NCBI RefSeq assembly: GCF_030811455.1
Contig: NZ_JAUSQU010000001.1
Coordinates: forward strand, 2,108,001-2,172,000
Reading direction: 5' to 3'
DNA length: 64,000 nt
From: Streptosporangium lutulentum
GTDB taxonomy: Bacteria > Actinomycetota > Actinomycetes > Streptosporangiales > Streptosporangiaceae
Part shown: one piece after another, positions 7,559 to 31,012 of the stretch
How positions within the stretch are numbered: position 1 is the stretch's first letter
How the letters are laid out: each line of letters begins with the position of its first letter
Program-made: the position numbers and the translations under genes
Notes under the pieces: generated by a model
Seen by the model: the letters and a program-made list of their open reading frames with translations, nothing else
What the model was told of the DNA's origin: nothing
Databases searched by the model: none

Positions 7559-8134
7559 ATGGCCAGGCGGAGCATGCGCGAGGAGATCGTCGAGGCGGGG
7601 CTGGAGCAGTTCCACGCCCATGGCTACAGCGCGGCCGGGGTGAAGAACATCACCGATGCGGCCGGAGTGCCGAAGGGGTCGTTCTACAACCACTTCGACA
7701 GCAAGGAGGCCCTGGCCGTCGTGGCGCTGGAGCGCTACGCCGAGGGGCTCCGCCTGCGGGAGCTCGCCGACACCTCCGTCGAACCCCTGACGCGCCTGCG
7801 AGCCCACTTCGAGTTCCTCCGTGACGAGAACGTACGGCGCGGGATCACGCGGGGGTGTCTCGTCGGCAACTTCAGCGCCGAGGTCGCCGATCACAGCGAC
7901 GTGATCCACACCGCCGTTCGGAACAGCTTCAGGCAGTGGGCCGTCCTGATCGCGGCGGCGCTCGGCGAGGCCCGGCGCGCCGGTACGGTGCGCGCCGATC
8001 TCGACCCTGAGACGACGGCCCGCTTCGTCCTCCACGCCTGGGAGGGCACGCTCCTCGGAGCCCGCGCCGACCGCTCGGCGGAGGCCTTCGACTCCTTCTT
8101 CGACCTCGTGTTCGGCACGCTGCTCGTCAAATGA
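7559..8134 (+). CDS. TetR/AcrR family transcriptional regulator
   Basis: This is a 191-residue regulator with an N-terminal helix-turn-helix (residues 1-50, with NITDAAGVPKGSFYNHFDSKEAL as the recognition region) and a C-terminal ligand-binding domain similar to those near NemR/AcuR-type proteins. The ATG at 7559 follows AGGAGG by 6 bases. It is divergent from the MOSC-reductase fusion gene, 201 bases away, which is the most likely target. A strong hairpin follows the gene. Confidence 0.9.
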   Translation: MARRSMREEIVEAGLEQFHAHGYSAAGVKNITDAAGVPKGSFYNHFDSKEALAVVALERYAEGLRLRELADTSVEPLTRLRAHFEFLRDENVRRGITRGCLVGNFSAEVADHSDVIHTAVRNSFRQWAVLIAAALGEARRAGTVRADLDPETTARFVLHAWEGTLLGARADRSAEAFDSFFDLVFGTLLVK

Positions 8135-10035: not shown

Positions 10036-10525
10036 GGGTGACGAGGAGTGGTTCGGGGAGCTCAACATCAACCTGCTGGCCGCCGTGCGCCTGGACCGGG
10101 GGCTGCTGCCCAAAATGATCGAGAACCGCTCCGGCGCGATCGTCCACGTCTCCTCGATCCAGCGCCGCATGCCCCTGTACAACGGGACGCTGGCCTACGC
10201 CGCGGCCAAGGCGGCCCTGGCCACCTACAGCAAGGGACTGGCCAACGAGGTCGCCCCGCACGGCGTCCGGGTCAACAGCGTCGCCCCGGGTTTCGTGCGG
10301 ACCGGCGCTGCCGACGATCTCGTCGACCGCATCGCCGCCGACGCCGGCACCGACCGCCAGGCCGCGCTGCGGAAGCTGATGGACTCTCTCGGCGGCATCC
10401 CCCTCGGCCGCCCCAGCCGGCCGGAGGAGGTCGCCGAACTCGTGGCCTTCCTGGTCTCCGACCGCGCCTCCGCCATCGTCGGTGCCGAGTACGTCATCGA
10501 CGGCGGCACCGTCCCCACCGTCTGA
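10036..10525 (+). pseudogene. SDR oxidoreductase, C-terminal remnant (NAD-binding N-terminus deleted)
   Basis: The sequence from [21 protein letters not shown] to the stop is the second half of a short-chain dehydrogenase. It includes the catalytic Ser region IVHVSS, the YAAAKAA motif (Tyr and Lys) and the C-terminal segment ending YVIDGG. The N-terminal glycine-rich NAD site and the NNAG segment are absent, and no start codon in the family position exists. The gene is divergent from the kinase remnant and both are cut at the same point, so one deletion removed both 5' halves and their shared promoter. Confidence 0.85.
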
Positions 10526-10568
10526 CCCGCGCACGTCATCGACGGCGGCACCGTCCCCACCGTCTGAC
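10491..10568 (+). repeat. Tandem duplication of the SDR 3' end
   Basis: Bases 10491-10526 recur exactly at 10533-10568 (36 identical bases, period 42). The copied segment includes the last codons and stop of the SDR remnant, so the second copy is non-coding. Confidence 0.95.
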
Positions 10569-10607
10569 GCGCACATCCCGTACACCCGCATCTCCTGAGG
10601 AGAAGAC

Positions 10608-23757: not shown

Positions 23758-24669
23758 TCAAAGGCGGTAGACCCGGCGGGCGGTCGCGCCGAACACGTCG
23801 CGGGAGACCTCGGAGGGCCGGTGGGAGAGAACCTCCCGCCACGTGGAGACCAGGGTGGGCAGGTCCGTCCAGAGCTTCTCGATGGGGAAGTTGCTTCCCC
23901 ACATGCAGCGGTGGGAGCCGAAGAGCTCCAGGCAGGTGGCCGCGACCGTCTCGATCAGCGACCGGTCCACCCGATGCACGAACGTGCCCTGGCCGGTGAG
24001 TTTCACCACGACGTTGGGGCGCTCGGCCAGGAGTCTCAGCCCGCGGGTCCACTCCGCGACCCTGGAGGGCTCGGAGTCGTCGAGCATTCCCGCGTGGACC
24101 AGCACGAACGTGACGTCGGGGAAGTCGTCGACGAAGCTCGCGGCGTCGGCCATCTGACCGGCGAAGACCTGGAGCTCGAACAGCCAGCCGAGGTCGGCGA
24201 GCGAGGCGATGTTGCGGCGGAAGACGGGGTCCTTCATGCGGTCGGGGGAGGAGGCGAAACGGAACTCCGGCCGCTCGTGCCAGTGCAACTGCAGCCGGGT
24301 GCCCCGCATGAGCGGGGTGAGCTCGGCCTGGCGGCGCATCACGTCCGCCGCGCCCTCGTCGAACAGGTCCGCCGAGCCGATCACGGCCGTGGGCCAGCCG
24401 GTCTCGGCGTGCGTCTCGCGCAGCCGGCGCACCTCGTCCAGGGAGCGGTCGAGCGGCCAGTTGGCCTGCACATAGACCGCCGACGTGATGCCGCAGGCGG
24501 TGGCCTCCTCGACGTACTCCGACACCGGGTAGTCGCGGCGGATCGGCTCGTACGGGCCGAAGATGCGCGGGACCATCTCTCCCTGGAGCCAGGGCAGGTC
24601 GGCGGCGCGCCAGATGTGGTGGTGCGCGTCGACGATCCCGGGAGACGGAAGGGCGCCGGCGTGGGTCAT
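23758..24669 (-). CDS. Amidohydrolase (PF04909 type, fuconolactonase-like)
   Basis: This is a 303-residue metal-dependent hydrolase. DAHHHIW (14-20) gives the first metal site, FVLVHAG the mid-barrel His, and MWGSNFPIEKLW the final Asp/Asn strand in which the usual GSDFP has Asn at the Asp position. Members hydrolyse lactones or decarboxylate aromatic acids. The ATG at 24669 overlaps the VWA gene stop (ATGA), so it is the last gene of the molybdenum hydroxylase operon. It may act on the product of that enzyme, which is inference. Confidence 0.87.
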   Translation of the reverse strand: MTHAGALPSPGIVDAHHHIWRAADLPWLQGEMVPRIFGPYEPIRRDYPVSEYVEEATACGITSAVYVQANWPLDRSLDEVRRLRETHAETGWPTAVIGSADLFDEGAADVMRRQAELTPLMRGTRLQLHWHERPEFRFASSPDRMKDPVFRRNIASLADLGWLFELQVFAGQMADAASFVDDFPDVTFVLVHAGMLDDSEPSRVAEWTRGLRLLAERPNVVVKLTGQGTFVHRVDRSLIETVAATCLELFGSHRCMWGSNFPIEKLWTDLPTLVSTWREVLSHRPSEVSRDVFGATARRVYRL

Positions 24670-25844
24670 GAGGGGACTCCCGTGGGTCGTGGGGTGGGCC
24701 GCCGCCGCGCCGCCGCGCGCCGGGGGCCGGACAGGACGGCCGGGAGGCGGCGGACCTCCGCCAGGCCGGTGGGCAGGTCGCGCACGCCGCCGAGGTGGTC
24801 GAGGCTGGGAAGCTGGGCGGCCATGGCGCGTGTGACCGGGCTGTAGGTGGGGGAACAGGCCAGCGGCGACCACCAGACGAGCCGGTGTCCCAGGCGCGAC
24901 AGGCGGGCGGTCGCGCGGACCATGGGCTCGTGGTCGCCGCGTTCGAGCCCGTCGGAGAGCACGATCACGAGCGCGCCCCTCGCGAGCGCCGTGAACCGCG
25001 GGACGCTCAGGAACTCCTGCAGCGCCGCCCCGATCGCCGTGCCGCCGTCGGCGTCCGTCACCTTCCCCGACACCGCCCGCAGCGCCCGATCGAGGTGCGG
25101 GTGCGACAGCGCGGGGGTGATCCGGGTGAGCCGGGTGCCGAAGGTGAAGACCTCGGTGCGGGCCGGCGCCGCGCGCAGCGCCGTGTGCGCGAGGCGGAGC
25201 AGGTCCGGGGTGTGCTGCCGCAGCGAGCCCGAGACGTCGACCAGGATGAGCAGGCGGCGCGGGCGTGGGGGCCGGGCGCGTCGGCGCAGTTCGACGATCT
25301 CTCCGTCGTGGCGGTGCGCCCGCCGCCAGATGTGCCGCATGTCCAGCCGGTCCCCGGACCGCGCCGGGCGCCGCCGCCGCGACGGCGCCCAGGGCAGTAC
25401 GGCGGGCCAGGCGGCCTCCAGGTCACGCATGACCGAGCGCCGCCGCTCGTCGTCCGGGCCGAAGTCCCGGCTGCCGTACGTGCTGAGCGCGCTGGCCCGG
25501 GTGCCGTCGCCGGGCAGTACGTCCTGTGGCGCGGGGTCGTCCTCGCCGGGTCCCTGGGGGGAGGGCACGTCGCTCTCCGAGGCCGGTGGCGGGACCACGT
25601 CCTGAAGGCCGCCCTGCCGGAACCACGCGTCGAAGACCCGGTCGAACGCGCCCAGCTCGCCGACGTCGTGCAGCAGGGTGATCCGGGCGTACCAGTACAG
25701 GGCGGTCAGGTCGCGCGGTGGCGAGGCGTCGATGACCCGCAGCAGGTCGGCCTGTTTCGGCAGCGCGGTGGTCACGCCCGCGGCGCGCAGCGCGGACAGG
25801 AACCCCCACAGGTGACCGGCGGCGAGGGCGATGGGTTCAGGCAT
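24666..25844 (-). CDS. VWA domain protein, CoxE-like
   Basis: This is a 392-residue protein. Residues 195-370 form a von Willebrand A domain with an intact metal site: D203-x-S205-x-S207, Thr in GGTAIG, and Asp in VLSDG. The N-terminal half has the helical CoxE region. CoxE and the AAA protein CoxD act together in maturing the molybdenum-copper or molybdenum-sulfur centre of CO dehydrogenase-type enzymes, and both genes lie in this operon. The ATG at 25844 has GGAGGTG 8 bases upstream and sits inside the third copy of an 8-base start/stop overlap (see the small ORFs). Confidence 0.9.
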   Translation of the reverse strand: MPEPIALAAGHLWGFLSALRAAGVTTALPKQADLLRVIDASPPRDLTALYWYARITLLHDVGELGAFDRVFDAWFRQGGLQDVVPPPASESDVPSPQGPGEDDPAPQDVLPGDGTRASALSTYGSRDFGPDDERRRSVMRDLEAAWPAVLPWAPSRRRRPARSGDRLDMRHIWRRAHRHDGEIVELRRRARPPRPRRLLILVDVSGSLRQHTPDLLRLAHTALRAAPARTEVFTFGTRLTRITPALSHPHLDRALRAVSGKVTDADGGTAIGAALQEFLSVPRFTALARGALVIVLSDGLERGDHEPMVRATARLSRLGHRLVWWSPLACSPTYSPVTRAMAAQLPSLDHLGGVRDLPTGLAEVRRLPAVLSGPRRAAARRRPTPRPTGVPS

Positions 25845-25890
25845 CGCCGGACACCTCCGTGGGGTCTGCGGGGACGGTGGGATCAGGCAT
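25837..25890 (-). CDS. 17-codon coupled small ORF 2
   Basis: ATG to TGA encodes MPDPTVPADPTEVSGDA. Its start overlaps the stop of small ORF 1 by 8 bases (ATGCCTGA), and its own stop overlaps the VWA gene start by the same 8 bases. Its upstream half carries the GGAGGTG ribosome-binding site of the VWA gene. It may be a translational relay and not a functional peptide. No homologue is known to me. Confidence 0.5.
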   Translation of the reverse strand: MPDPTVPADPTEVSGDA

Positions 25891-25936
25891 CGCCGACCGC
25901 CCCCGCGTGGCCGACGGAGAGGAAGGACTCAGGCAT
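25883..25936 (-). CDS. 17-codon coupled small ORF 1
   Basis: ATG to TGA encodes MPESFLSVGHAGAVGDA. The ATG lies inside the last codons of the AAA ATPase gene (ATGCCTGA, 25929-25936), and the ORF ends GDA-stop exactly like the ATPase and small ORF 2. GGAG lies about 10 bases before the start, inside the ATPase gene. It arose from tandem duplication of the gene junction. Confidence 0.5.
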   Translation of the reverse strand: MPESFLSVGHAGAVGDA

Positions 25937-26924
25937 CGCCGAACAGCTCCTCCGCGTGCCCGAGGAGCAGCCGGGTGTCCTCCTCGTCCTTGATGAGCAG
26001 GCCGAGAGCGCGGCGCAGCGCCACGGGCCATGGGCTGCCGCCCTCGGCCAGGGCCGTCGCGCCCCGGGCCCACTCCACCGATTCTGCGATGCCGGGCCGT
26101 TTGAGCAGCGGCAACCCGCGTACCCGCTGAACCGCGCGCACCAGCCCCTCCGCCGCCCGCTCCTCCAGACCGGGCACGGCCGCGCGCAGGATCGCCCGCT
26201 CGCGGTCGACCTCGGGGAAGGCGATCCAGTGGTAGAGGCACCGTCGTTTGAGGGCGTCGTGCAGCTCGCGGGTCCGGTTGGAGGTCAGCACCACGATCGG
26301 CGGCGTGCGCGCCCGGACGGTGCCCAGCTCCGGGATCGTGATCTGGAAGTCACCCAGGAACTCCAGCAGGAACGCCTCGAACTCGCTGTCGGCGCGGTCG
26401 ATCTCGTCGATCAGCAGGACCGCGCCGTGGTCGGACTCAAGGGCCCGGAGCAGCGGCCGCCGCAGCAGGAACTCCTCACGGTAGAGGTCGCCGACCTCCT
26501 GGCCGCGGCTCTCGGCGACCCGGACCTGGAGGAGCTGCTTGGGATAGTCCCACTCGTACAGCGCCTGGCCGGAGTCCAGGCCCTCGAAGCACTGGAGCCG
26601 GATGAGGTTCCGGCCGACGACGCGCGAGAGCACCGAGGCGACCTCGGTTTTCCCGACGCCCGGTTCTCCCTCCAGCAGCAGCGGCCGGTTCAGCCGCAGT
26701 GCCAGGTGGATGGCCGTGCAGAGCCCTTCGTCGGCGAAGTACCCCTCCCGTTCGAGTGTCGCGGCGAGCTCGCGCTCGTCCAGGAGAGCCGGCGCCACGG
26801 AGGACCCGACAGACGTCACGGATGACCCGTCGGGCCTCGCGACGGATCCGCCGGGTGCCACGGGGGATCCCCCGGGTGCCACGGAGGATCCGTCGGGCGT
26901 CGCGAAGGGCCTGCCGGATGTCAC
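25929..26924 (-). CDS. MoxR/CoxD-type AAA ATPase
   Basis: This is a 331-residue ATPase. Walker A is GEPGVGKTE at about 86-94, Walker B is AVLLIDEIDRAD near 155, and sensor 1 is VVLTSNRTRE. This is the CoxD-like branch that pairs with CoxE VWA proteins in assembling molybdenum hydroxylases. The GTG at 26924 overlaps the stop of the EthD-like gene by 4 bases (GTGA). The first 45 residues are an unusual repeat of APGGS and PDGSSV blocks that is not part of the family core, so a later in-frame GTG is possible. Confidence 0.88.
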   Translation of the reverse strand: MTSGRPFATPDGSSVAPGGSPVAPGGSVARPDGSSVTSVGSSVAPALLDERELAATLEREGYFADEGLCTAIHLALRLNRPLLLEGEPGVGKTEVASVLSRVVGRNLIRLQCFEGLDSGQALYEWDYPKQLLQVRVAESRGQEVGDLYREEFLLRRPLLRALESDHGAVLLIDEIDRADSEFEAFLLEFLGDFQITIPELGTVRARTPPIVVLTSNRTRELHDALKRRCLYHWIAFPEVDRERAILRAAVPGLEERAAEGLVRAVQRVRGLPLLKRPGIAESVEWARGATALAEGGSPWPVALRRALGLLIKDEEDTRLLLGHAEELFGDA

Positions 26925-27254: not shown

Positions 27255-28262
27255 TCAGGCGTCCTGGCGGAGGGCGTCCAGCCCGCGCAGGACACGTTCG
27301 GGGGTGAACGGCATCGCCGTCAGGCGCACGCCGCAGGCGTCGAAGACGGCGTTGGCGATGGCCGGGATCGGCGCGTTGGCGGTCATCTCGCCGATGCCCT
27401 TGGCGCCGTAGGGGCCGTTGCCCGCGGGGCGCTCCAGGAACAGGCTGTGCTGCGCGGGGAGGTCGGCCGGGCCGGGCATGAGATATTCGGCGAAGTCGCG
27501 AGGCCCGTGGTCGCGTCGCGGGTAGTAGGGCTCGGTGGTCTCGAACAGGGCGTGCGACAGGCCCATCCAGGCTCCGCCCTCGACCTGCTGGGTCGCCATG
27601 GCCGGGTTGAGCGCCCGGCCGATCTCGTAGACGTTGTACAGCTCCAGCACCTCGATGACCCCGGTCTCGTCGTCCACCTCGACGACGGCGGCCGTGCACG
27701 CGTGCGCCTGGCACGAGTCGGGGTCCATCTCTCCCGTCTCGGGCACCGGCGTGCTCGGCTCCTTGAGGAAAATGCCGCGCCCGGAGATCGTGCGGCCGTG
27801 CTTGAAGTGCGCGGCCAGCGCCAGGTCGGTGATGTGGATGCTCTTCTCGTCCGAGCCCTTCAGCTTGATGACGCCGGTGCCGTCGGTCTCCAGGTCCGCG
27901 GCGTCGACCTCCAGCTCCTCGGCGGCGACCTCCAGCATCACGCCGCGCGCCTCGGCCGCCGCCATGATGACGGCGTTGCCGACGCGGTGGGTGCCCCGGC
28001 TGGCGAAGGTTCCCATGCAGTGCGGGCCGGTGTCGGTGTCGGCGGTGTCGACCAGGACGTTCTCGATCGGCAGGCCGAGCGTCTCGGCCGCGCACTGCGC
28101 GGCGATCGTCTTGATGCCCTGGCCGAGGTCCACCGAGGACAGCGTGATCACGAACGTGCCCGTGGTCGTGGAGTGGATCAGCGCCTGTGAGGGGTCGCCG
28201 CCGAGGTTCATACCGGTCGGGTAGTTCACCGAGGCGTACCCGCGCCCGCGCAGCTTGGCCAT
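27255..28262 (-). CDS. Molybdenum hydroxylase, molybdopterin subunit, C-terminal half
   Basis: This is a 335-residue protein covering the second molybdopterin domain of the xanthine dehydrogenase/CO dehydrogenase large subunit. It has NYPTGMNLGGDPSQA near the start, SSVDLGQG near 43, EIGRALNP near 215 and the catalytic GAKGIGE with E292, the base that activates the substrate. In most relatives this domain is fused to the N-terminal half. Here the ATG follows an in-frame TAG two codons upstream. GAGAAGG lies about 8-10 bases before the ATG, so separate translation is plausible. Either half alone would be inactive. Confidence 0.9.
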   Translation of the reverse strand: MAKLRGRGYASVNYPTGMNLGGDPSQALIHSTTTGTFVITLSSVDLGQGIKTIAAQCAAETLGLPIENVLVDTADTDTGPHCMGTFASRGTHRVGNAVIMAAAEARGVMLEVAAEELEVDAADLETDGTGVIKLKGSDEKSIHITDLALAAHFKHGRTISGRGIFLKEPSTPVPETGEMDPDSCQAHACTAAVVEVDDETGVIEVLELYNVYEIGRALNPAMATQQVEGGAWMGLSHALFETTEPYYPRRDHGPRDFAEYLMPGPADLPAQHSLFLERPAGNGPYGAKGIGEMTANAPIPAIANAVFDACGVRLTAMPFTPERVLRGLDALRQDA

Positions 28263-28265
28263 GGC

Positions 28266-29651
28266 CTACAGCCCTTCTCGTGTCGTCGAGGACATGCGGC
28301 GGTACGCCTCGGGCAGTTCGTGCCCGACCAGCTCCGCGGTCTTCTGGATCACTTCGACCAGGGCCGTGCCCTCGGCGACCTTGCGGTGGGCCTTGAGGTC
28401 CCCGTCGCGGTAGGCGTTGAGGAGGCGCAGCCGCAGCGGGTCCATGGACAGCGCCCTGGCGACCCGGTCCATCTGCGACTCCAGCGCGAAGTCGCCGATG
28501 GTCACCCCGAACCCGCGCATGGCGCTGGACGGCGTGCGGTTGGTGAACACGCAGTGGCAGTCGGCCCACACGTTGGGGATCGAGTACGGCCCGGGCAGGT
28601 GGGCGGCGGCCTTGGTGGTGCCGTACGGCGTGTGCCGGGCGTAGGCGCCGGAGTCGACGTACAGCGTGACCTTTCGGCCGATGATCCGGCCGTCGTCCAT
28701 CACGGCGTCCTTGATGTAGATGCGCTCGGCCGCGCGCGGCGAGGAGACCTGCATCTCCTCGTCCCTGTCGTAGACGAACTTGACCGGGCGGTCGGTCACC
28801 ATGGCGGCCACGCAGGCGACCGGCTCGACGGTGACGTCGACCTTGCCGCCGAAGCCGCCGCCGACCGTCCCGCCGACGATGCGCAGCCTGTTGAACGGGA
28901 CCTCCAGGATCAGCGCGGTGTTGTCGAGGGTGAAGAAGCACGCCTGGGTGTCGGAGTGGATGCGCAACCGGCCGTCCGCCTGCGGGACCACCACGCAGCC
29001 GGTGGTCTCCGTGGGGGCCTGCTCGATCGGGGCGGACTCGTAGCGCCACTCGAAGACGTGGTCGGCCTGGCCGAACGCCTTCTCCACGTCGCCGAAGCGG
29101 ATCCGCCGGCAGTGGTGTCCCTCGTACTTGAAGAAGTTCTGGCCGTGGTACTCGTTGACCAGCGGCGCCCCCTCCGCCAGGGCCTCCTCGACGTCGAAGA
29201 CCGCGGGCAGGTCCTCGTAGTCGACCCTGACCCGGGCCGCGCCCTCCAGAGCCGCCGCCTCGGACTCGGCGACCACGGCACAGATCGGCTCGCCGAGGTA
29301 GCGGACCTTGTCCACGGCCAGGATGGGCTCGTCGTCCGGCCCGACGCCGATCAGCTTGAGGGGGGTGTAGAGGTTGTTCGGGATGTCGGCGTGGGTGAGG
29401 ATCCGCGTGACGCCCGGCACCGCGAGGGCGGCGGTCAGGTCGACGCCCCGGATCCTGGCGTGGTGGCGGGCCGAACGGTGCATCTTCAGATGCAGCAGCC
29501 CCGGCGGGGCGACGTCCTCGAAGAACTCGGTCCGGCCGGTGACGTGCCCCCGCGCGTCGGAGCGCTGGACGACCGAGCCGATGACGGTGAAGTCGTCCTC
29601 GCGCTCGGCGGCGAAGGGGCGCTTGTCGATGGGAGCGAGCCGGTAGGTCAT
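28266..29651 (-). CDS. Molybdenum hydroxylase, molybdopterin subunit, N-terminal half
   Basis: This is a 461-residue protein with the a/b hammerhead domain (30-150) and the first molybdopterin domain. GGTVGGGFGGK (260-270) is the cofactor-binding loop, and PSSAMRGFG is the Arg-containing active-site loop. The ATG at 29651 overlaps the 2Fe-2S gene stop by 4 bases. The reading frame ends with TAG at 28268-28266, and the same frame continues after GCC with the start of the C-terminal half. The large subunit is therefore split or interrupted. A larger open frame upstream is a shadow of the 2Fe-2S gene. Confidence 0.9.
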   Translation of the reverse strand: MTYRLAPIDKRPFAAEREDDFTVIGSVVQRSDARGHVTGRTEFFEDVAPPGLLHLKMHRSARHHARIRGVDLTAALAVPGVTRILTHADIPNNLYTPLKLIGVGPDDEPILAVDKVRYLGEPICAVVAESEAAALEGAARVRVDYEDLPAVFDVEEALAEGAPLVNEYHGQNFFKYEGHHCRRIRFGDVEKAFGQADHVFEWRYESAPIEQAPTETTGCVVVPQADGRLRIHSDTQACFFTLDNTALILEVPFNRLRIVGGTVGGGFGGKVDVTVEPVACVAAMVTDRPVKFVYDRDEEMQVSSPRAAERIYIKDAVMDDGRIIGRKVTLYVDSGAYARHTPYGTTKAAAHLPGPYSIPNVWADCHCVFTNRTPSSAMRGFGVTIGDFALESQMDRVARALSMDPLRLRLLNAYRDGDLKAHRKVAEGTALVEVIQKTAELVGHELPEAYRRMSSTTREGL

Positions 29652-30166
29652 CGCGACACCGCCTCCTCCGCGGGCCGTCCCGGCTCGACGCCCGCTTCGC
29701 GCCTGCGCCTGGCCGCGTCCAGGATGGCGATCACGATGGGCCGGTAGCCGGTGCACCGGCAGACGTTTCCCGAGATCGCCTCGATCACGTCCTCCTCGCT
29801 CGGATCGGGGTCGCGGTCCAGCAGGGCCTCGGCGACCATGATCATGCCCGCCGTGCAGAACCCGCACTGGGTGGCGAAGTTGTCGACGAAGGAGCTCTGC
29901 ACCTCGTCGAGGTTTCCGTCGGAGGCCACCCCCTCCAGCGTGCGGACCGAGTGGTCCGCGACCGTCTCCACCGCGACCAGGCACGCGGTCGCCGGCCGGT
30001 CGTCGACCAGCACGGTGCAGGTGCCGCAGCTTCCCTGCGCGCAGCCGCGCTTGGCCGCGGTGAGCCCCAGCGACTCGCGCAGGATCGTCAGAAGTGTGGT
30101 TCCCGGTCTGGCGATGAACTCCCGGGGCTCGCCGTTGACGACGAGCGAGACGATCTGTGACGGCAT
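29648..30166 (-). CDS. Molybdenum hydroxylase, 2Fe-2S subunit (CoxS/XdhC-like)
   Basis: This is a 172-residue iron-sulfur subunit. The plant-type cluster is bound by C42, C47, C50 and C62, and the second cluster by C101, C104, C136 and C138 (CGFC and CRC). All eight ligands are present, so electron transfer from molybdenum to FAD should be intact. The C-terminal tail of about 20 residues is Arg/Glu-rich and longer than usual. It lies between the FAD subunit gene (42-base gap) and the molybdopterin gene (ATGA overlap). Confidence 0.94.
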   Translation of the reverse strand: MPSQIVSLVVNGEPREFIARPGTTLLTILRESLGLTAAKRGCAQGSCGTCTVLVDDRPATACLVAVETVADHSVRTLEGVASDGNLDEVQSSFVDNFATQCGFCTAGMIMVAEALLDRDPDPSEEDVIEAISGNVCRCTGYRPIVIAILDAARRRREAGVEPGRPAEEAVSR

Positions 30167-30208
30167 GGTCCTGCCCTTTCTGGGGGATGGGCACGTGCGG
30201 TGAGACGA

Positions 30209-31012
30209 CTAGCCGATGAAGGCCCGGCGCAGATGGACGGGCAGGACCCGCGACCGGTACCACGCGCTGGCGTAGGCGTCGTCGAAGGGCGCGGTGTCGG
30301 CGCGAGCGGCCTGCCCGGCCTCGGTCAGGACCTCGGGGCTCAGCGGGCGGCCCCGCATCAGCCGTTCGGCCGACACCGCGCGCACCGGGCGCGGGGCGAC
30401 GCCGCCGAGCGCGGTCCTGGTCGAGGTCACCACGCCGTCCGCGGTGTGCGTCACGGAGGCGACGGTCACGATGGACGCCGAGTTCAGCCTGCGGCGCATG
30501 GCCTTGTGGTAGTACCAGGTTCCCGGCTCGGGCAGCGCCGCCACCACCGCCGTGACGAACTCGCCCTCGGCGACCCCCGACGCGAGCACGTCGGCCACCG
30601 GGGCCTCGCGCCGCCCGCCCGGCCCGGTGATCTCACACGTCGCGCCGAGGGCGAGCAGGCAGACGGCCAGGTCACCGTACGGCTGCGCGACGAACAGGTT
30701 GCCGCCGACGGTCGCCAGGTTGCGGATCGTCGGGGAGGCGATCGTGCGCAACGCCGGACGCAGGAAGCCGAGCCCGGGATGCTCCTTGACGGAGGACAGG
30801 GGAGCGGCCGCGCCGATCCGGGCCACGCCGTCGCGGACCTCGATCCCGGCCAGTCCCGCCCTCCGCAGGCTGACCAGCTCGTTCCTGATCGCGGCCCCGC
30901 TGTTCACCAGCGGCATCACGACGGTGCCGCCGCCCATGATCCATCCGCCCCTCGCGGAGTGGACGGCCGCGGCCTCGGGAGACTCGGGCAGGTGCACCGC
31001 CTGGATCATCAC
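30209..31012 (-). CDS. Molybdenum hydroxylase, FAD subunit (CoxM-like)
   Basis: This is a 267-residue subunit with the FAD-binding start (GGWIMGGGTVVMPLV), the TIRNLATVGGNLF loop near 95-107 and the CO dehydrogenase flavoprotein C-terminal domain. It is the first gene of the operon, 136 bases from the divergent GntR gene. The frame starts GTG ATG. AGGAG is 8 bases before the GTG and 11 before the ATG, so 31012 is favoured. The enzyme would be a cytosolic heterohexamer-type hydroxylase with unknown substrate. Confidence 0.92.
   Translation of the reverse strand: MMIQAVHLPESPEAAAVHSARGGWIMGGGTVVMPLVNSGAAIRNELVSLRRAGLAGIEVRDGVARIGAAAPLSSVKEHPGLGFLRPALRTIASPTIRNLATVGGNLFVAQPYGDLAVCLLALGATCEITGPGGRREAPVADVLASGVAEGEFVTAVVAALPEPGTWYYHKAMRRRLNSASIVTVASVTHTADGVVTSTRTALGGVAPRPVRAVSAERLMRGRPLSPEVLTEAGQAARADTAPFDDAYASAWYRSRVLPVHLRRAFIG

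Follow-up and report, generated by a model that had tools for sequence, protein, structure and literature searches.

A serial stop/start junction between CoxD-like and CoxE-like genes

In Streptosporangium lutulentum a CoxD-like AAA+ ATPase gene is linked to a CoxE-like gene by a chain of two 17-codon micro-ORFs, in which the same 8-nt stop/start overlap, ATGCCTGA, occurs in three identical copies at an exact spacing of 46 bp. The chain lies in a stretch of 64,000 nucleotides that was analysed as a whole and is referred to as the window. Two 17-codon ORFs joined by identical 8-base overlaps had been described here in an earlier note on this DNA, and all sequence facts given in it proved exact. 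The structure is best explained as a slippage-prone coupled junction, expansions of which would survive only if ribosomes are still able to step from CoxD to CoxE; this reading is held with moderate confidence. The parts of this relay are:

25929..26924, minus strand: CoxD-like AAA+ ATPase (MadB/MoxR-like), 331 aa, with a GTG start and a 4-nt overlap with the upstream EthD-domain gene
25822..25959, minus strand: three-copy 46-bp tandem repeat containing the relay (repeat finder)
25929..25936, minus strand: junction 1, ATGCCTGA, CoxD stop / micro-ORF1 start, 8-nt overlap
25883..25936, minus strand: micro-ORF1, 17 codons, translation MPESFLSVGHAGAVGDA and stop
25883..25890, minus strand: junction 2, ATGCCTGA, micro-ORF1 stop / micro-ORF2 start, in a predicted strong hairpin
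25837..25890, minus strand: micro-ORF2, 17 codons, translation MPDPTVPADPTEVSGDA and stop; holds the CoxE Shine-Dalgarno sequence
25837..25844, minus strand: junction 3, ATGCCTGA, micro-ORF2 stop / CoxE start
24666..25844, minus strand: CoxE-like VWA protein, 392 aa, start at 25844 (Pfam VWA_CoxE 1.2e-47)

The CoxD-like gene ends on the minus strand with GGCGATGCCTGA. Among the three 46-nt copies reported by the repeat finder, identity to the reference copy was 74% and 65%.

Origin of the repeat unit

A 52-bp composite of the CoxE head (ATGCCTGAACCCGTCGCCCTCGCCGCCGG) and the CoxD tail (GCACGCGGAGGAGCTGTTCGGCG) of Streptosporangium subroseum was compared with the repeat units. Unit 1 of S. subroseum aligned to this composite with a few mismatches and two 3-bp deletions; the score was 62, while shuffles reached 33 at their 99th percentile. 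The two window units scored 47 and 42, also above shuffles (33-36). The unit is a recombinant of CoxE head and CoxD tail and thus arose by local duplication of the junction, which supports the tandem duplication of a coupled junction claimed in the earlier note and adds the source of the unit. With its 52 bp the composite has a length of 1 modulo 3. A relay results when an 8-nt junction is duplicated in this phase, since every start then opens an ORF of 17 codons that closes exactly at the stop of the next copy. The two later 3-bp deletions in the unit preserve the frame. The two parts are joined at a short similarity (GGCCA / GGGCA), as would be expected of slippage or unequal exchange.

The junction in related species

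The orthologous junction was read in S. subroseum (G011; L002, L036, L038), in a third Streptosporangium species (G005; L003, L037) and in 21 further species from Sphaerisporangium, Nonomuraea, Actinomadura, Virgisporangium, Phytohabitans and Actinoplanes. S. subroseum harbours five cores, hence four micro-ORFs, with a 46-bp period at the same place as the window relay. G005 has no micro-ORFs; one overlap, ATGTCTGA, is followed by three 39-bp repeats that form an in-frame N-terminal extension of CoxE, and one of these repeats reads GGCGATCCCGAACCC, likely a decayed core. Since CoxE of G005 has taken up the repeats, this species can do without a relay, which counts against the relay reading. 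Frame-breaking indels in relatives, named in the earlier note as refuting its reading, are thus in part present, the G005 indels fusing the units into CoxE.

Elsewhere, Nonomuraea sp. NEAU-A123 carries a single micro-ORF of 18 codons between ATGCGTGA and GTGCGTGA, at a spacing of 49 bp. This unit is of independent origin, because the tree pairs NEAU-A123 with N. guangzhouensis (support 100/98), which has a plain overlap. In-frame extensions of CoxE were found in S. corydalis (30-bp repeats), N. jiangxiensis, N. fuscirosea and N. cypriaca, and an in-frame extension of the CoxD tail in N. glycinis. Among the relatives read no CoxE was clearly uncoupled, although the extended versions may also start further downstream at an ATG or GTG. 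About seven length changes arose independently, and one third of the phases would be expected to uncouple the genes; for finding none broken, our own rough estimate is p ~0.06; the absence of broken-phase length variants thus hints at filtering for coupling and is suggestive only. Taken together, the variants in the relatives suggest that the flow of ribosomes from CoxD to CoxE matters more than the tiny peptides.

The 8-nt overlap at the CoxD stop is kept in 24 of 24 orthologous junctions, in seven of them with ATC or ATT replacing ATG. These seven are Micromonosporaceae orthologues (L050, L051, L053, L054, L055, L058 and L059), with the CoxE start at the overlap shortly upstream of position 8001. 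A GGAGG-like sequence usually lies upstream, and five of the seven have no nearby in-frame ATG or GTG. A conserved AUC/AUU start under translational coupling is possible for CoxE in these orthologues.

Translation signals and the proposed ribosome relay

Pairing with the anti-Shine-Dalgarno sequence at the window starts amounts to -9.5, -9.2 and -13.3 kcal/mol, and to values between -9.2 and -14.9 kcal/mol in S. subroseum. The CoxE Shine-Dalgarno sequence is GGAGGTG in the window; S. subroseum has a more complete one, AAGGAGGTG, which lies at an open site. The predicted hairpin at junction 2 would cost 29 kcal/mol to open in the window and 26 kcal/mol in its S. subroseum counterpart, while the quartiles of random sites are 13-19 kcal/mol. 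According to these folding models free initiation at junction 2 is unlikely, so that a translating ribosome would be needed to open it. The opening cost at the CoxE start is 22 kcal/mol in the window, which exceeds the upper quartile for random sites, and 14 kcal/mol in S. subroseum, where the start is open. The fold of the whole junction is only mildly stable (z -1.57), and no known structured RNA was detected at the junction at Rfam gathering thresholds.

In coupled gene pairs, which are recognized by an overlap of 1-8 nt or a very short gap, termination-reinitiation is nearly abolished at gaps of ~20 nt, 15 nt of the upstream gene are enough for coupling, and an overlap of -8 ranks third in frequency (PMC10666635). 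By its 8-nt overlap in all 24 junctions the CoxD/CoxE pair would belong to this class. In a coxD mutant of Oligotropha the CoxE protein was absent although the neighbouring genes were transcribed, which its authors explained by a helicase role for CoxD (PMC4240915). In our own reading translational coupling would also fit this observation. On these grounds it is proposed that the relay carries ribosomes across the 92-bp insertion.

The proposed course of events is as follows. Slippage, or unequal exchange between short homologous stretches, would have produced tandem copies of a junction with the CoxD stop and the CoxE start in an 8-nt overlap. In each copy a CoxD tail, which includes a Shine-Dalgarno sequence, is followed by the overlapping start/stop and then by a CoxE head. 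A ribosome would terminate CoxD and restart immediately on micro-ORF1, then on micro-ORF2 and finally on CoxE, and the relay would in this way bridge a 92-bp insertion that otherwise breaks termination-reinitiation. We infer that ribosomes really use these steps. The micropeptides would be by-products, and copy number would drift largely freely provided that coupling or in-frame fusion stays.

Selection and alternative explanations

The flanking genes of the window and S. subroseum differ by dS values of 0.153 and 0.158 and dN values of 0.049 and 0.029. Repeat units were paired by best match (W1 with S2, W2 with S3), so that unit orthology is judged by similarity and few sites are available. 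These pairs show 14 differences over 92 bp, which is close to neutral expectation. None of the 14 falls in the 13-nt core CGGCG-ATGCCTGA (p 0.006), and among six units compared none of 18 variable columns does so (p 4e-4); both p-values are generous because CoxD and CoxE coding holds part of the core. The evidence for selection on the core is of moderate strength.

Selection for keeping the frames open is weakly supported. In neutral simulations over the divergence since the S. subroseum split the two-step relay was kept in 40-66% of runs, and retention of open frames since this split was therefore rejected as proof of selection. At 0.25 substitutions per site, which is nearer to the divergence of the two window paralogues (the age of the duplication is uncertain), the relay was kept in 8-25% of runs and the core was also intact in at most ~2%. 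The earlier note had taken the preserved open frames as a sign of selection; the frames are indeed open, yet neutral retention makes them weak evidence. Its broader claim of selection for coupling finds indirect support in the 24 retained overlaps, the lack of clearly uncoupled length variants and the unchanged core, and it is plausible that selection on coupling has filtered the variants.

The strongest alternative is that free ribosomes translate CoxE mainly from its own Shine-Dalgarno sequence, the repeats being unselected and the open frames a by-product of the 46-bp period. We regard this as possible but rather unlikely. Independent initiation may carry CoxE, given the strong Shine-Dalgarno sequence at CoxE in both relay species and the accessible start in S. 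subroseum, and the frequent neutral retention of the relay at the measured divergence points the same way. A similar unit is present in another Streptosporangium genome (L119; G013 C2:6567645-6567687), where an HxlR-like regulator gene ends in a duplication of 34 bp that created a micro-ORF of 13 codons, flanked by two GATGCCTGA cores. This micro-ORF has no credible downstream gene in frame, so such units can arise without coupling. However, the overlap is universal among the orthologous junctions and no length variant clearly uncouples the genes, the bodies of the units diverge while the core stays unchanged, and in the window the CoxE start is costly to open.

A further possibility is that each restart loses some ribosomes and that a selected number of steps sets the CoxD:CoxE ratio; control of this ratio had been suggested in the earlier note. 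Copy numbers of 0, 2 and 4 among close relatives are in line with this, and every restart must have an efficiency of its own. Nevertheless, a change between four, two and none within one genus, without a trend or other correlates, resembles drift, and any such effect would be damped by the strong local Shine-Dalgarno sequence of the final step. Such a dial is considered improbable.

That the two ORFs encode functional micropeptides, as the earlier note had also suggested, was not supported and was rejected on dN/dS and on absence in relatives. In favour of such peptides, the two frames are open and their ends conserved, and two early deletions of 3 bp each are inferred. Against this, 12 of the 14 differences between orthologous units are non-synonymous, dN between the micro-ORFs of the window and S. 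subroseum (0.18) exceeds dS (0.08), the bodies differ between paralogues as well as between orthologues, and the micro-ORFs are missing in G005 and most relatives. A peptide function is thus highly improbable.

Micro-ORF chains as genomic background

Chains of micro-ORFs were scanned in 864 kb of the S. lutulentum genome (~8% of the genome), with coding-like codon-position GC required of both flanking genes. This filter removed the many false chains between spurious ORFs, such as a 17-bp array at L129, that appeared without it. A total of 20 paths was listed, mainly with 4-nt overlaps and including the window chain: 17 with one link, two with two and one with three, a few of these paths being alternative readings of one site. 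One example (L142, 4783-4909) lies between a TIM-barrel-like gene and a TetR-like gene and consists of three unrelated micro-ORFs of 12, 8 and 23 codons, which are linked by 4-nt overlaps. Chains of non-homologous micro-ORFs are a fairly common background in this GC-rich genome and a chain as such is unremarkable; chain length alone was accordingly rejected as proof.

The window chain is the only one in the 864 kb with 8-nt overlaps throughout, units of equal length and homology between units. In 378 kb of relatives' loci chains with only 8-nt overlaps were found in S. subroseum and Nonomuraea sp. NEAU-A123 alone. Common as non-homologous chains are, chance or an assembly artefact has a negligible probability: the repeat copies differ among themselves, and the independent assembly of S. 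subroseum shows the same period with more copies. The relay is not due to chance, because S. subroseum keeps the 46-bp spacing and no other homologous equal-length chain occurs in the 864 kb.

Relation to known systems

The closest known kind of element is the mycobacterial interspersed repetitive unit (MIRU), of which senX3-regX3 provides an example. MIRUs occur at operon junctions as short tandem repeats whose copy number varies, with a small ORF that overlaps its neighbours (PMC12548453, PMC2734929); their presumed role is to maintain coupled translation of the adjacent gene. The relay shares the tandem repeat of ~40-100 bp with variable copy number at an operon junction (46 bp; two versus four micro-ORFs) and the small ORF in each unit overlapping its neighbours, by 8 nt at every step where MIRUs have 4 nt. 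MIRUs are dispersed elements, with 41 sites in the M. tuberculosis H37Rv genome (PMC2734929); they are apparently mobile and insert at start codons with 4-nt overlaps (PMC12548453), whereas the relay unit is local. A search of 16 Streptosporangium genomes for two GATGCCTGA cores 22-50 bases apart retrieved the window locus, its S. subroseum counterpart and the unrelated 34-bp duplication in G013. Paired cores thus occur only at the CoxD/CoxE locus in S. lutulentum and S. subroseum, and a dispersed element was rejected by this search. Rather than being an inserted foreign element, the unit aligns to CoxE head and CoxD tail. It would therefore work like a MIRU yet is not a MIRU, being local and made from its neighbours.

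Termination-reinitiation pairs with -8, -4 or -1 overlaps (Huber et al. 2019, 2023; PMC6728339, PMC10666635) likewise have a stop/start overlap and a Shine-Dalgarno sequence upstream, and the products of CoxD and CoxE probably act together as in such pairs; the relay differs by two to four serial stop/start steps added between the genes. In minigenes and leader ORFs coupled to a downstream gene a very short ORF influences translation of the next gene, as in the axe-txe minigene (PMC8708949). The relay, by comparison, has several such ORFs in a row; they are homologous, have the junction as their source and would be reached by way of a full upstream gene.

The junctions form a natural series (no relay, one, two or four steps, fused) for measuring successive ribosome terminations and restarts, and for asking whether selection at a gene junction sees coupling itself. 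MIRU-like units can form without a mobile element, and intergenic micro-ORFs may have a route of origin without peptide function. That duplicated coupled junctions are a general, self-made route to relays in actinobacteria, with the period modulo 3 selected, leaving only relays or in-frame fusions, and the number of units serving as a heritable dial on the ratio of two interacting proteins, is a speculation that we hold to be doubtful.

Gene partners and operon context

The CoxD-like protein matches Pfam AAA_5 (3.8e-12) and NCBIfam MadB_ATPase (1.5e-82, under the cut-off of that model). Among the operon neighbours Pfam identifies an EthD-domain gene besides subunits for molybdopterin (split), [2Fe-2S] and FAD binding. 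A MoxR AAA+ gene followed by a VWA_CoxE gene beside a molybdenum hydroxylase (Pfam AAA_5, VWA_CoxE, MoCoBD_1/2, Fer2_2 and FAD_binding_5) identifies the pair as CoxD/CoxE. The cluster was not recognized as an aerobic CO dehydrogenase cluster proper: the large subunit scores far under the CODH model cut-offs and nearer to xanthine dehydrogenase and 4-hydroxybenzoyl-CoA reductase models, although splitting lowers any score. This molybdopterin-binding large subunit is encoded by two ORFs (MoCoBD_1 and MoCoBD_2; 27258-30263, minus strand) with a TAG stop at 28266-28268. In relatives where both halves were found they gave separate adjacent matches, with higher conservation in the C half (82-98%) than in the N half (62-89%).

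The first codons of the CoxD-like gene (26844-26924, minus strand) form an in-frame 21-bp tandem repeat, and the overlap with the EthD-domain gene is the 4-nt GTGA. The 5' end of this gene is a second coupled, repeat-grown junction within the operon of the relay. Elsewhere in the window, at 10491-10572 on the plus strand, a gene tail including its stop codon is present as a 42-bp tandem duplication (97%).
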